From contig JALGZO010000546.1 in NCBI GenBank assembly GCA_025774865.1, positions 1 through 6,118 on the forward strand: 6,118 bases of DNA. The letters are read 5' to 3'. Made by a program: the position numbers and the translations under genes. Source of the DNA: a bacterium (lineage in GTDB: Bacteria; ARS69). Positions within the stretch are counted from its first letter, which is position 1. Each line of letters opens with the position of its first letter. Below are positions 1-6,118 of the stretch, piece after piece. Under the pieces are notes generated by a model that did not search any database, was not told where the DNA came from, and saw nothing but the letters and a program-made list of their open reading frames with translations.

Positions 1-981
1 GGCGGGCTGGATTGCGTCGACTGCCACAGTTTTCCCACTGGAGAGAACGGCACGATCATCCCGGCCCCGCTGCTCCAGGAAGACCAGGACATGGTCGTCC
101 CGCAGCTGCGCAACATGTACGAGAAGACACGCTTCGACGACACCGCGTCGACGAACGTGCGGGGCTTCGGCTACACGCACGACGGGGCGATCGACGACCT
201 CTTCTCCTTCCTCGACTTTCCCGGCTTCAACTTCGACAGCATATCGGACCAGGAGGACGTGGCCGCGTTCCTCCTGGCGTTCGACGGCGACGTGCACGCA
301 GCGCTCGGCGCGCAGTGGACCATGGACGGGACGAACGAGGCGGCCGGGATCGATCGCGTGAGCACGCTCGTCTCGCTCGCCGACCTGAGCGTCGTGGGGC
401 TCATCGCGAAGGGACGTGACGGCAACACCGATCAGCGGGGATGGGTGTACGAGAGCGGCGCTGGGTTCAAGCCGGACCGTGAGCTCGAGGGGCACGTTCC
501 GCTCGGGACGCTTATGGCGAACGCGGCCAGCGGGACCGAGATCACCTTCACCGCCGTCCTGAAGGGGAACGAGCACCGTCTCGGCATCGATCAGGACGGG
601 GACGGGTTTCCGGATCAAGACGAGCGCGACGTCGGCTCGGACCCGGGGGATCCGGGCTCCACGCCCGACCAGGCCGTCGGTGCCCCGCTCCTGAGCGGCG
701 GAGCTCGGCCGGCGCTGTGGCTCGCCGGCGCGAACCCGACGCGCACGGCGACGCGCATCGGCGTGCAGCTCGCCGTTGCCGGGGCGGTGCGGCTCGACGT
801 GTTCGATTTGAGCGGGCGTCGCGTTCGGGCGCTCCTCCAGGGGAACGCGGCGGCTGGTCCATCCGAGCACGTCTGGGACTTGCGGGATGCACGGGGTCGC
901 CGGGTGTCGTCGGGTGTGTACTTCGTTCGCCTCTCGACCCGGGACGCCTCCATCGGAGAGCGGATCGTGGTCTTGCGGTGA
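1..981 (+). CDS. C-terminal part of an exported c-type cytochrome with FlgD-like C-terminal domain (5' partial)
   Basis: The reading frame is open from base 1, so the gene begins upstream; 326 residues are visible. A haem-c attachment site CVDCH lies at fragment residues 5-9. It is followed by PQLRNMYEKT and GFGYTHDG and then a DVAAFLLAFD helix, a pattern common in multidomain di-haem cytochromes of the cytochrome-c-peroxidase/DHOR-like type. Residues about 197-220 form an Asp/Gly-rich stretch (DQDGDGFPDQDERD) like a thrombospondin type-3 or EF-hand-like calcium linker. Residues about 240-326 match the FlgD-type Ig fold used as a C-terminal domain in many FCB-group secreted proteins (DVFDLSGRRVRAL, then SGVYFVRL and a closing ERIVVLR strand). 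Haem attachment implies export. The protein is probably periplasmic, surface-bound or secreted, in redox chemistry with an unknown substrate. It ends 9 bp from the convergent lipoprotein gene. Confidence 0.85.
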   Translation, partial: GGLDCVDCHSFPTGENGTIIPAPLLQEDQDMVVPQLRNMYEKTRFDDTASTNVRGFGYTHDGAIDDLFSFLDFPGFNFDSISDQEDVAAFLLAFDGDVHAALGAQWTMDGTNEAAGIDRVSTLVSLADLSVVGLIAKGRDGNTDQRGWVYESGAGFKPDRELEGHVPLGTLMANAASGTEITFTAVLKGNEHRLGIDQDGDGFPDQDERDVGSDPGDPGSTPDQAVGAPLLSGGARPALWLAGANPTRTATRIGVQLAVAGAVRLDVFDLSGRRVRALLQGNAAAGPSEHVWDLRDARGRRVSSGVYFVRLSTRDASIGERIVVLR

Positions 982-1511: not shown

Positions 1512-3266
1512 TCAGGAAGGAAGTGTCATCGTGACGACCGTGCCTTCTCCGGGGATCGACTGGATGTCGACCTCCCCACCGTACAGCTCCGCCGTCTGAC
1601 GAACAATCGCCAGCCCGACTCCCGTTCCCTCCTCTCGCGTCGTGTAAAAAAGGTCGAGAACCTTGCCTCGGGCCTCGGGAGGGATTCCCGGGCCCGTGTC
1701 GGCGACGGAGATCCGGATCCGATCTTCGTTGCGGCGGCAGCGTAGCACGACACGGCCGTCCCGCGACGGCCGGGCCTGGATGGCGTTCTGGACCAGATTC
1801 GTGATCGCCTGGCGAAGGACCTCCCGATCGCCGTCGCCCGAGGCCGGAACCGGAGAGGCGTCCAGTCCGAGCTCGAGGCCGGCCAGAATCGCGTCGGCTT
1901 CGAGCTCCTCTCGAACGTCACGAAGGAGGTCGTTCATGTCGATGCGCTCGACCACCCGAGGTCTGAGGCGCGCGATCTTGAGAAACCCTCGGATCGCGCG
2001 ATCGAGCCGGCTCACTTTCTGAAGCGCGCTCTTCACGTGCTTCTCGACCTCGGGAGCCGCGACCTCTCTCAATGCGTCCAGGTCGAGAGTCAGGCCCTGC
2101 AGAGGATTCCGGATCTCGTGTGCGACTCCCGTAGCCATTTGCCCGAGATGCATCAACACGCGACTCTGATCGACGAGATTGTGCAGGGCGGCCTGGTCAC
2201 CGGCGTTCTTGATCTCGATGAGCACTCCGGGTTCGGGCCCGGCCGGCTCTTCGATCCGATGCCCCACCGCCACCATGTCGCCGCGTCCCTCGACCGGCGG
2301 GAGCGGCACCGAGAGGCTGCGCTCACGCGACGAGCGGAGCTTCTCGCACAGAGCCCGGACCGGATGCTGCGGTGGCAAGAGCTCCTGCAGGCGCCGTCCC
2401 ACGGCGTGGTCGCGGTCGAGGCCGAGGAGCTGCGAAGCGGGGGTGTTGGCGAGCATCACCTCGTCGTCCTGGCCGAGCGCGAGGATCCCCTCGCCCAAGA
2501 AGTCGGCCGCGCGATGAATGGTCCGCTCGCGGTGAAACTGCTCCCCGAGAAGATTCAGCTGGTGCGTGAGTCGACTGAATTCGTCGGCTCCCGATTGCGG
2601 AATCGGTCGGTCGAAGCGGCCCTCGCGGAACGCGGCCACCCCTTCCTCGAGGGTGCGAACGCGGCCGACGACGATTCGCGAGAACACGACGACCCCGCCG
2701 ATCACGAGCGAAAGAACGACCAGGGAGACGACCAAGCCGCGCCAGAATGCCTCCTGAACGCTGCCCCACAGGAATGTCCCCGTCACGATCACGACGACCG
2801 ATGCGAACGGCTGGCCGTCTTTCGTCAGCGGGGTGACGGTCTCGAAGTAGCCTCGCGGCCGAAGCCGCCACAGCTCGGGAAGCGACTCGACGAGGTTGCG
2901 AACGCGGGGCAGTGGCGGGCGTCGCTCGACCACTCGCCCGGTTAGGGAGGGCAGGCTATGGGCGACGGCGACGCGGTTCGTGTCGCAGACGGCGACATGC
3001 AGCACGGACGACGCCTGGGCGAGGGCGTCGGCGAGTACGAGCTGAAGTCCGGAGTCGCGTGCTGCGTCCTCCAGATCGGCTCCCGGTGCCTCTCGTTGGA
3101 TGAGCTCGAGCTGGCGTCTCACCGCGGCCGTGATCAACGCGCATTCGGTGGCCGCCCGTTCGGTGGCGATCCGCGCCACGCTCGCGAACTCGAGGATCGC
3201 GGAGGCCGCGACGAAGGCCGGGGCCAGGATCAACAGCGCGCGGACGGAGCGGGAGCTACCCCTCAT
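1512..3266 (-). CDS. Membrane-bound sensor histidine kinase (Cache-like, HAMP, PAS, HisKA, HATPase)
   Basis: This 584-residue kinase is the likely partner of the regulator just upstream. ATG at 3266 is chosen because an AGGAAG lies eight bases before it; the frame stays open further upstream but runs deep into the regulator gene. Transmembrane segments lie at about 10-33 and 177-199, enclosing a roughly 140-residue extracytoplasmic domain. That domain contains VAVCDTNRVAVAHS followed by LTGRVV, which resembles the signature strand of PDC/Cache sensors. A HAMP linker (about 197-249) and a PAS-like domain (about 250-355) follow. The catalytic core has the H-box VAHEIRNPL (phosphoacceptor His383), N-box TNLVQNAIQA, G1 DTGPGIP, LDLFYTT F-box, G2 GTGVGLAI and G3 GEGT, all intact. 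It has no receiver domain. The class is NtrB/ZraS-like, pairing with sigma-54 activators. The ligand is unknown. Confidence 0.95.
   Translation of the reverse strand: MRGSSRSVRALLILAPAFVAASAILEFASVARIATERAATECALITAAVRRQLELIQREAPGADLEDAARDSGLQLVLADALAQASSVLHVAVCDTNRVAVAHSLPSLTGRVVERRPPLPRVRNLVESLPELWRLRPRGYFETVTPLTKDGQPFASVVVIVTGTFLWGSVQEAFWRGLVVSLVVLSLVIGGVVVFSRIVVGRVRTLEEGVAAFREGRFDRPIPQSGADEFSRLTHQLNLLGEQFHRERTIHRAADFLGEGILALGQDDEVMLANTPASQLLGLDRDHAVGRRLQELLPPQHPVRALCEKLRSSRERSLSVPLPPVEGRGDMVAVGHRIEEPAGPEPGVLIEIKNAGDQAALHNLVDQSRVLMHLGQMATGVAHEIRNPLQGLTLDLDALREVAAPEVEKHVKSALQKVSRLDRAIRGFLKIARLRPRVVERIDMNDLLRDVREELEADAILAGLELGLDASPVPASGDGDREVLRQAITNLVQNAIQARPSRDGRVVLRCRRNEDRIRISVADTGPGIPPEARGKVLDLFYTTREEGTGVGLAIVRQTAELYGGEVDIQSIPGEGTVVTMTLPS
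3256..3266 (-). other. 11-bp stop/start overlap joining regulator and kinase genes
   Basis: The kinase ATG at 3266 lies inside the last codons of the regulator gene, whose TAG is at 3256-3258. The kinase ribosome binding site (AGGAAG) is embedded in the GAG-GAA-GAG codons for the regulator's terminal Glu run. This layout is typical of translational coupling and supports stoichiometric production of a cognate pair. Confidence 0.8.
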
Positions 3267-4755
3267 CGTCGGGCTCTTCCTCGTAGCGACGAAGCTTGGA
3301 GTAGAGGGTCTTCGCCGTGATGCCGAGGATGCGAGCGGTCCGGGTGCGATTGCCGCCACAAGCCTCGAGCGTCTCGAGGATGAGGGAGCGTTCCGCGTCG
3401 TGGATCGAGCTTCCCACCGGGATCGTCACCGCGCCCGGGGTGGCGGCCAGCGATTCGGCGACGCGGCGGGGTCCCCTCACCGACTTCGGAAGGTGGTGGG
3501 GGCCGATCTCGCCTTCCGGACAGAGGATCACGGCGCGCTCCACCACGTTGCGGAGCTCTCGCCCGTTGCCCGGCCAGTCGTGCGCCATCAACAGGCTCAT
3601 CGCCTCGTCGGCGAAGCCGAGCACGATCCCCCCGTTCTCTTCGACGAACTTCGTGAGAAAGTGCTGGGCGAGGAGCGGGACGTCTTCGCGGCGATCCCTC
3701 AAGGGCGGCAGCGCCAGTGTGAAGACGTTGAGACGATAGTAGAGGTCCTCTCGCAGCTTGCCCGACTCGACGAGCCGTTCGACGGGGACATTCGTGGCGG
3801 CCAACACGCGGACGTCGACCTCCAGCTCGGTCGATCCGCCGACCCGTCGAACGATTCCGTCCTCCAGAACGCGCAGGAGCTTGCTCTGGAGGTCGATCGG
3901 CATCTCCCCGATCTCGTCGAGAAGCAGGGTCCCCTCGTGGGCGAGCTCGAAGCATCCCGCCCGGGACGAGGTGGCTCCGGTGAACGCGCCCTTCTCGTGC
4001 CCGAAGATCTCGCTCTCCAGGAGCGTTTCGGGAATGGCGGCGCAGTTGATCGCCACGAGTCGCGAGGAGGCGCGGGGGCTCATGGCGTGAATCGTCCGGG
4101 CGGCGAGTTCCTTGCCGGTTCCGCTCTCGCCGACCACGAGGACGGAAGCGTTCGTCGGAGCGACCTGCTCGATGAGGCGATACACCTCCAGCATGGGAGC
4201 GGACCCACCGACGAGTTCCTGCAGTCGACCGCTCCGGACCATCTCGCGTCGAAGGTGGAGGACCTCCCGCCGGAGGGTGGCGCGCTCGAGTCCCTTGCGG
4301 ACGCTCGTCACCAGGCGGCTCCGATCCACCGGTTTTTCGAGGTAGTCGTAGACGCCCTGCCGCGTCGCCTCGATGGCGGTGTCGATGGAGCCGTATCCCG
4401 TGAGAACGATGAGCGTGGTCTCGATCCCAAGTTCGCGAATCTCGGAGATCAGGGCGAGGCCGTCCTTCCCGGGAAGATTGAGGTCGGTGATGATGACCTC
4501 CGGCGTCAGGGCGCCGAGGCATCGCAGGGCGGTCTCCGCGTCTCCGGCCGTCTCCACCTCGTAGCCCTCGCCGGCCAGAACCCGGGAGAGCCCTTCGCGA
4601 ATCGACTCGTCGTCGTCGACGACGAGAATTCGCCCGGGTGCCTCTACGAAGCTCGCGTTCTGTGGACGGATGTCGACGGTCGAGTGCGGGGCCAAGAGCA
4701 CCTCTCCCCCCAGCGGCGCCGGTCGCATCGCGGCGCGCCTGGACTGAAGACCCAT
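3256..4755 (-). CDS. NtrC-family sigma-54-dependent response regulator
   Basis: With ATG 4755 the protein has 499 residues. The receiver domain (about 42-155) holds the acidic DDD cluster at 47-49, phosphoacceptor Asp91 in ITDLNLPG, Thr119 and Lys141. The AAA+ domain (about 182-415) has Walker A GESGTGKE (209-216), the sigma-54-contacting GAFTGA loop (256-261), Walker B LLLDEIGEMP (277-286) and REDLYYRLNV. Sensor II reads WPGNGRELRN, with Gly where Val is usual. A Fis-type helix-turn-helix ends the protein (GGNRTRTARILGITAKTLYSKL). It should activate sigma-54 promoters when phosphorylated, and its last 11 bp overlap the kinase gene. The start is uncertain: ATG 4755 has GGAGG at a long 12-base spacing, ATG 4782 has only a weak AAGG, ATG 4728 and TTG 4695 are other options, and the frame is open to TTG 4833. 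About 40 residues precede the receiver, more than is typical. Confidence 0.95.
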   Translation of the reverse strand: MGLQSRRAAMRPAPLGGEVLLAPHSTVDIRPQNASFVEAPGRILVVDDDESIREGLSRVLAGEGYEVETAGDAETALRCLGALTPEVIITDLNLPGKDGLALISEIRELGIETTLIVLTGYGSIDTAIEATRQGVYDYLEKPVDRSRLVTSVRKGLERATLRREVLHLRREMVRSGRLQELVGGSAPMLEVYRLIEQVAPTNASVLVVGESGTGKELAARTIHAMSPRASSRLVAINCAAIPETLLESEIFGHEKGAFTGATSSRAGCFELAHEGTLLLDEIGEMPIDLQSKLLRVLEDGIVRRVGGSTELEVDVRVLAATNVPVERLVESGKLREDLYYRLNVFTLALPPLRDRREDVPLLAQHFLTKFVEENGGIVLGFADEAMSLLMAHDWPGNGRELRNVVERAVILCPEGEIGPHHLPKSVRGPRRVAESLAATPGAVTIPVGSSIHDAERSLILETLEACGGNRTRTARILGITAKTLYSKLRRYEEEPDDEG

Positions 4756-4776: not shown

Positions 4777-4792
4777 TGGCATGAGCCTTGTA
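4777..4792 (+). promoter_or_regulatory. Sigma-54-like -24/-12 promoter firing toward the small membrane protein gene
   Basis: TGGCATG, four bases, then TTGTA matches the sigma-54 consensus TGGCACG-N4-TTGCW at 10 of 12 defined positions, with exact GG to G spacing. The -12 element is GT instead of the near-invariant GC, which weakens it. The predicted start is about 4803, giving a leader of about 177 nt before the GTG at 4980. It overlaps the 5' region of the divergent regulator gene. Confidence 0.42.
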
Positions 4793-4979: not shown

Positions 4980-5075
4980 GTGGAAGATTACCTCGCCGCG
5001 ATCGCGTTTTGCCTCGGCGCGATCATGTTCAGTCACATTCTCACGTTGGAGCCGGACCAGGACGACGAAGAGTGA
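4980..5075 (+). CDS. 31-residue acidic single-span membrane protein
   Basis: A short frame starts at GTG 4980 and ends at TGA 5073-5075. Six bases before the GTG is a full GGGAGG Shine-Dalgarno, as good as any in the window. The product begins MEDYLAAIAFCLGAIMF and has one hydrophobic stretch of about 19 residues (4-22), then an acidic tail ending EPDQDDEE. It contains no Lys or Arg. This composition looks selected and not random: neighbouring spurious frames are Arg-rich, whereas this one is hydrophobic then acidic. It lies divergent from the regulator operon and downstream of a sigma-54-like box. It is probably an inner-membrane small protein modulating a larger partner, possibly the kinase; the function is not recognisable from sequence. 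Homologues in relatives would settle whether it is real. Confidence 0.6.
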   Translation: MEDYLAAIAFCLGAIMFSHILTLEPDQDDEE

Positions 5076-5320: not shown

Positions 5321-5743
5321 CTATCGGTCGAGGTCCCGATAGTCCAGATCCTCGTACGTGGCTTCGCGACTTTCCCATTCATCCCACGGAGTCTCGCGGC
5401 TCGAGCCGATCACCAGCTCGGATGCGTGCCGCTTCACCTCGAGCTCGACAGGGGGTACGAGCCCGAGCTTCACCTTCTTCGACTGCGGGGGAATCGCGCC
5501 CACGCCGACCCGCCGGGACGATCTCGTTGCCTTGATCGGGGCGATGGTGTCGTGCTTCGCGAACATGGAACGCGCATCCGCGAACAAGATCGCGAGGATC
5601 TCGCCGACGCGCGCCGGGCTCGATATGAAGGGAGTCCGGGCCGTCGACGGGGCCAGAACCTCGTTGGCCGGGACCTCGGCGTTCGCGAGGGCCGCCGGCG
5701 CTACCCACGCCATGATCAACATGGCCAGAACGGTGCGTTTCAT
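5321..5743 (-). CDS. Exported 140-residue protein of unknown function
   Basis: ATG 5743 has GGGAGG seven bases upstream and starts a clear Sec signal peptide: MKR, then a hydrophobic core, with a signal peptidase I site after ALA (residue 20). An earlier in-frame start at 5782 would bury the signal and lacks such a site. The mature protein of about 120 residues has one amphipathic segment (about 45-62, VGEILAILFADARSMFAK), a basic middle (KATRSSRR; KKVK) and a short segment with VPPVELEVKRH. It ends in an acidic, aromatic tail (PWDEWESREATYEDLDYRDL). There are no cysteines and no second membrane span, so it is probably periplasmic or secreted. I recognise no family. It sits 61 nt downstream of the predicted start of the strongest sigma-54 promoter here, so it is a prime candidate target of the neighbouring regulator (inference). 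Confidence 0.8.
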   Translation of the reverse strand: MKRTVLAMLIMAWVAPAALANAEVPANEVLAPSTARTPFISSPARVGEILAILFADARSMFAKHDTIAPIKATRSSRRVGVGAIPPQSKKVKLGLVPPVELEVKRHASELVIGSSRETPWDEWESREATYEDLDYRDLDR

Positions 5744-5800: not shown

Positions 5801-5815
5801 GGAGGGGGCTACCTC

Positions 5816-5830
5816 GCATTCGAGGTGCCA
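5816..5830 (-). promoter_or_regulatory. Sigma-54 -24/-12 promoter of the exported-protein gene
   Basis: On the minus strand the sequence reads TGGCAC, five bases, then ATGC. The -24 hexamer is exactly consensus, the spacing is exact, and the -12 element keeps the invariant GC, differing from TTGC by one base. The predicted start is about 5804, giving a 61-nt leader to ATG 5743. It is the best such match in the window, and it lies near a gene for a sigma-54 activator. Confidence 0.65.
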
Positions 5831-5929
5831 ATCCGCGGGGGAAGACGCTCAAGTCGTGTTTCGACAACGGGATGGATGACGGCTCCACGGGCGGGCATCG
5901 ACCGGAGGGGGGCCCCGGATCGGCGACTG

Positions 5930-5957
5930 GTCGACAGCGCGTCGACACCCGGTCGAC
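5930..5957. promoter_or_regulatory. Three GTCGAC palindromes phased at 11 bp, candidate activator binding array
   Basis: GTCGAC occurs at 5930-5935, 5941-5946 and 5952-5957, each start exactly 11 bp from the next, with 5-base spacers AGCGC and ACCCG. About one helical turn apart, the copies present the same DNA face. The array is about 100-128 bp upstream of the -24 box of the exported-protein promoter, the usual distance for NtrC-type enhancer sites. It is also about 20 bp upstream of the -35 box of the plus-strand gene. It could serve either promoter. Confidence 0.45.
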
Positions 5958-5976
5958 GCGCCGGGGCGGGTTCCCA

Positions 5977-6005
5977 TTGACAGCGCGCCGCGGACGTTCT
6001 CCGAT
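5977..6005 (+). promoter_or_regulatory. Sigma-70-type promoter for the GAF-like gene
   Basis: A perfect TTGACA -35 hexamer lies at 5977-5982. After a 17-bp spacer comes TCCGAT (6000-6005), a weak -10 keeping the first T and the final AT. The predicted start near 6012 leaves about 30 nt to the GTG at 6043 and would exclude the ATG at 6004 as the start. The poor -10 suggests activator dependence. Confidence 0.4.
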
Positions 6006-6042: not shown

Positions 6043-6118
6043 GTGCACCGGCGCGACACCCTTCTCGAGCTGTCCATTCTCTACGACACGGCTCGAGGGC
6101 TGCTGCGGCTCAGGGACC
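6043..6118 (+). CDS. Start of a possible GAF-domain protein (3' partial)
   Basis: The frame is open to the end of the window; 25 residues are visible from GTG 6043. This GTG is preferred because a GGGGGGAG lies five bases upstream. ATG 6004 in the same frame has no clear ribosome binding site and precedes the predicted transcription start. The residues DTLLELSILYDTARGLLRLRD resemble the first helix of many GAF-domain sensors (kinases, phosphatases and sigma-54 activators with a GAF input), which open with LLE-(I/L)-x-x-L-(Y/L)-x-x-(A/T). The effector domain lies beyond the window, so the class cannot be told. It is divergent from the exported-protein gene and shares its control region. Confidence 0.55.
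   Translation, partial: MHRRDTLLELSILYDTARGLLRLRD

Follow-up and report, generated by a model that had tools for sequence, protein, structure and literature searches.

A predicted sigma-54 promoter with a candidate upstream activating sequence between a small exported-protein gene and a divergent, predicted GAF-AAA-Fis activator gene

The locus and its genes

The window, a stretch of 6,118 nucleotides, belongs to a 4.7-Mb fragmentary assembly of an uncultured bacterium (G000). It carries a histidine kinase and response regulator cluster, a small exported-protein gene and the beginning of a divergent sigma-54 activator gene (Table 1). Five genomes of the phylum were considered, the window's own and four relatives. 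The comparison genome G002, from the same family and another genus, supplied the one true ortholog of the exported gene that was compared (n = 1). A second locus of the window's genome, C477, contains a different exported gene beside a paralogous activator. Genome-wide motif tests were pattern searches. Matches of the sigma-54 activator type number about 20 to 70 per genome in this lineage.

Table 1. Features of the window, with positions counted from its first nucleotide
Feature	Position	Strand	Remarks
3′ part of a protein gene	1-981	+	TSP3-like and FlgD_ig/C-terminal-sorting-like regions; adjoins the histidine kinase cluster
Membrane sensor histidine kinase	1512-3266	-	HAMP, PAS, HisKA, HATPase
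AtoC/NtrC-type response regulator	3256-4755	-	Receiver, AAA with GAFTGA, Fis HTH
Second -24/-12-like site	4777-4792	+	TGGCATGAGCCTTGTA, 9/11; non-coding, between response regulator and possible 31-aa peptide
Possible 31-aa membrane peptide	4980-5075	+	VEDYLAAIAFCLGAIMFSHILTLEPDQDDEE; purine-rich ribosome-binding site
Small exported-protein gene	5321-5743	-	140 aa; signal peptide MKRTVLAMLIMAWVAPAALA; conserved C-terminal tail
Predicted -24/-12 (sigma-54) promoter	5830-5816	-	TGGCACCTCGAATGC; GG at 5829-5828, GC at 5817-5816
Three GTCGAC palindromes	5930-5957		At 5930, 5941 and 5952; 11-bp period; candidate upstream activating sequence
21-bp array block	5940-5960	-	CGCGTCGACCGGGTGTCGACG; 18/21 identical to CGTGACGACCGGGTGACGACG above the G002 ortholog
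Possible sigma-70-type promoter of the divergent activator	5977-6005	+	TTGACA 5977-5982, weak TCCGAT 6000-6005; putative, by inspection
Predicted GAF-AAA-Fis sigma-54 activator	6043-6118	+	First 25 codons; cut by contig end

The ATG at 5743 was taken as the start of the exported gene because a GGGAGG ribosome-binding site lies upstream, a signal peptide follows and the start of the ortholog aligns with it. The conserved C-terminal tail of the protein reads ETPWD-WE-R--TY---DYRD--DR. Among 60 genomes homologues were found only in G002, whose ortholog (P0003) shares 36% identity, highest over this tail, and neither Pfam nor NCBIfam returned a match for a family with the ETPWD-WE tail. The predicted model is of low confidence (pLDDT 58.5) and largely unstructured, so that the fold is uninformative.

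The divergent gene, predicted to encode a one-component activator, specifies HRRDTLLELSILYDTARGLLRLRD after its start codon, a stretch that shares 64% identity with the N-terminal part of the G002 activator P0004. On another contig of the assembly, C490, a gene of this kind is broken off at codon 35 by the contig end, and C490:5703-7172 (minus strand) is most likely the remainder; the proposed join would span a gap of about 27-30 nt. The C490 product (P0006) has a GAF Pfam hit, a sigma-54 AAA domain with GAFTGA and a Fis HTH, a domain order resembling that of NorR- and NifA-type activators. Identity with NorR or NifA was ruled out, as all NCBIfam equivalog scores fell far below the cut-offs.

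The -24/-12 promoter of the exported gene

The sequence-only reading placed a near-consensus -24/-12 promoter before the exported gene, and the site was recovered exactly. It matches 9 of the 11 consensus bases (TGGCAC-N5-TTGCA), keeps GG-N10-GC intact and ends 72 bp before the ATG. When the 299 bp upstream are shuffled, TGGCAYN5WTGC seldom arises on the sense strand (P = 2e-4). Across the whole assembly TGGCACN5WTGC occurs 15 times versus 25 for the reversed control, and was therefore rejected as a genome-wide enriched motif. Thus the motif alone is insufficient for a promoter call and comparison has to decide. The G002 ortholog is preceded by a perfect -24/-12 site (TGGCATCGGAGTTGCA, L107:10009-10024) and the C477 exported gene by TGGCATCCCCCATGC. 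In all three exported genes that neighbour such an activator, TGGCAYN5WTGC starts 87-111 bp ahead of the start codon, with shuffle probabilities of 1e-4 to 4e-4 at each. The window's genome also encodes rpoN (PF04552 at G000:C42, E 6.8e-63), as do all five phylum genomes. Given the conserved sites and the presence of rpoN, the reading of TGGCACCTCGAATGC as a sigma-54 promoter is well supported, and transcription would start near 5804. A chance match, with transcription from an ordinary promoter, is what the comparison with the reversed control might suggest; it is highly improbable given the perfect site at the corresponding position in the ortholog and the matching one at the paralogous C477 pair.

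The GTCGAC array as a candidate enhancer

Three GTCGAC palindromes with exact 11-bp periodicity had been described in non-coding DNA upstream of this promoter, and all three were confirmed. They lie between the starts of the exported gene (5743) and the divergent gene (6043), 100-127 bp from the end of the -24 element and hence within the enhancer range of about 80-150 bp. The array amounts to two overlapping 17-bp 6-N5-6 dyads, and positions 5937-5961 form a perfect 10-5-10 inverted repeat, GCGCGTCGAC-N5-GTCGACGCGC.

Three equally spaced GTCGAC hexamers did not arise in any of 20,000 shuffles of the region, and for any thrice-repeated, equally spaced 6-bp palindrome the probability was 1e-4. 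GTCGAC occurs once per about 780 bp, a frequency from which about 8 pairs at 11-bp spacing and about 0.01 triples are expected in the assembly. A single pair is thus ordinary and a triple is not. Two successive GTCGAC-N5-GTCGAC units were found only in the window. The search for further phased arrays, which the earlier reading had proposed, yielded no second exact triple in the 4.7-Mb assembly; single pairs occur at four other places, all in coding-like ORFs, and GTCGAC-N5-GTCGAC was rejected as a genome-wide regulon marker on that account.

Conservation was also anticipated, and it holds in part: in G002 the promoter and a 21-bp block recur and the palindromes do not. The block, CGCGTCGACCGGGTGTCGACG, and its counterpart, CGTGACGACCGGGTGACGACG, lie on the same strand and start at -130 (window) and -115 (G002) from the -24 element. 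The match had a probability of 0.0013 against shuffles when the 35-bp array was compared to the 185 bp that precede the promoter in G002; an unrestricted comparison of the whole regions was weaker (P = 0.02). At the C477 promoter similarity to the array is weak (P about 0.03-0.15), and neither of the two comparison promoters has exact GTCGAC palindromes. The pattern TGWCGACN4TGWCGAC occurs five times in the five genomes, twice at the orthologous promoters of the window and G002. Since the TGWCGAC and 17-bp patterns were picked after seeing both sites, this rarity is descriptive. A relaxed search with the 17-bp operator, allowing 2 mismatches in G000 and G002, gave exact sites only at the window and the G002 ortholog; three sites with one mismatch are all in coding-like ORFs.

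The array might alternatively be a chance feature of G+C-rich DNA beside a real promoter. GTCGAC is common, single 11-bp pairs are near expectation and the palindromes are not conserved, all of which suits such an origin. The exact triple, unique in the assembly and never obtained by shuffling, and the 21-bp block, whose position and strand the ortholog preserves, speak against it, and we consider it unlikely. Of the claimed unit of promoter plus upstream activating sequence, then, the promoter is well supported, whereas the assignment of the array as upstream activating sequence is moderately supported by its sequence and the recurring block.

The activator and the proposed circuit

Relatives of the divergent activator recur beside exported genes of this kind. 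In G002 the gene for P0004 lies next to the exported-gene ortholog and converges on it, and the pairing is repeated at C477. Strong matches to this activator subfamily were found in the phylum genomes examined only at these three places, always beside the exported gene; the two genes are divergent in the window and convergent in G002 and at C477. Directly upstream of the C477 activator, on the same strand, lie STAS and HATPase genes of the RsbV/RsbW type (L136:11436-12252), an arrangement that suggests a partner-switching module tied to that activator.

The sequence-only reading probably had the response regulator in mind when it named a nearby activator, and the histidine kinase next to it is likely its partner. 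Phosphorylated by this kinase, the regulator could bind the same array and serve the same promoter: its gene, about 0.6 kb away from that of the exported protein, encodes a complete sigma-54 activator that includes a Fis-type HTH, and AtoC/NtrC-type regulators bind dyads of the general shape seen in the array. The divergent activator gene is closer, however, and in G002 the exported gene adjoins an activator of the GAF-AAA-Fis type, while the best matches of the response regulator lie on other contigs, and a conserved link between regulator and exported gene was not observed in that genome. The regulator pair may moreover serve its own -24/-12-like site at 4777. We therefore give this alternative a low probability, and the response regulator as binder of the array is not supported. 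Public relatives of the regulator were too distant for synteny (best segments 39-53% identical) and were set aside. The window contains three sites with at least 9/11 consensus bases against 0.43 in shuffles. The four related genomes contained no relative of the possible membrane peptide VEDYLAAIAFCLGAIMFSHILTLEPDQDDEE.

The conserved neighbourhood of its relatives with such exported genes favours the divergent GAF-AAA-Fis protein, which is most likely the activator of the array. This protein may, on the other hand, use the array as an operator for its own gene, shared with the exported gene or not. Divergent regulators often autoregulate, and the activator start is about 85 bp from the array, which sits 20 bp upstream of the TTGACA hexamer. 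Yet in G002 only the exported gene has the conserved block upstream; there the activator is not divergent, and inspection revealed no such block above it. Autoregulation as the role of the array thus appears improbable.

We favour, as the probable reading, a sigma-54 control region in which the array is the enhancer of the exported gene and the divergent GAF-AAA-Fis protein its activator. Sigma-54 RNA polymerase would form a closed complex at 5830-5816. The GAF domain of the activator may sense a small ligand, and its Fis-domain dimers would bind the phased sites, the 11-bp period bringing consecutive half-sites to the same helix face. The activator oligomer would then loop onto the polymerase and its GAFTGA-bearing AAA+ domain open it, so that the small exported protein could be made. 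Partial conservation, the recurrent neighbourhood, rpoN and the sequence of the array lead to this model, from which we infer binding, looping and the identity of the activator.

All parts of this circuit belong to known kinds, and it is a standard bacterial control circuit. One-component sigma-54 activators lie beside their target operons in Desulfovibrio vulgaris (DVU2956/DVU2957 and DVU3142/ohc), and in the case of DVU2956 the divergent activator, not the other of two candidate neighbours, bound in gel shift (PMC4641369). As in those systems, the activator is divergent from the sigma-54 operon and a binding motif, here a candidate one, lies in the shared upstream region. In contrast, the gene controlled here would encode a small exported protein of no known family, the regulator has a GAF-like N-terminus and the binding site is a candidate from sequence. 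Upstream activating sequences of the NtrC type are 17-bp dyads of the form 6-N5-6. GTCGAC-N5-GTCGAC has the same geometry, 100-130 bp above the -24 element, but the sequence is different and the three half-sites of the array overlap instead of forming separate dyads. The locus offers a concrete candidate assignment of activator, enhancer and promoter in this lineage.

A wider and tentative idea, which we regard as possible though doubtful, is that the sigma-54 activators of this phylum are commonly paired with an adjacent small, fast-evolving exported protein that has its own promoter and a matched enhancer, the enhancers differing with the recognition helices. These helices are RTTLIAKIQRFG in the presumed window activator versus RTTLNSKIKRFG and RTTLNARIKKLG in those of G002 and C477; the enhancers would be GTCGAC-based in the window and GTGACG-based at the other two loci. 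If true, there would be many insulated circuits of one activator and one exported protein. The occurrence of small exported proteins beside such activators here agrees with the published view that sigma-54 chiefly controls the cell exterior (PMC3162934).

In the five genomes, strict -24/-12 matches frequently fall between genes, 37-82 bp upstream of plausible starts, and many of the genes behind them encode exported or membrane proteins. Four of the 18 are close to an activator gene's 3′ end and precede exported or membrane-anchored proteins, for which a rough P of 2e-5 assumes 60 activators per genome and a distance of 300 bp; the G002 case, about 700 bp from its activator across the exported gene itself, is beyond that distance. 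The least certain of the four, G001:C405, is also covered by a coding-like ORF. A conserved protein of about 250-260 aa (AYFVLDSLLKSRIECGFES...VNVYLVHLL) is encoded behind a strict -24/-12 site in G001, G002 and G004 (L144, L150, L160).
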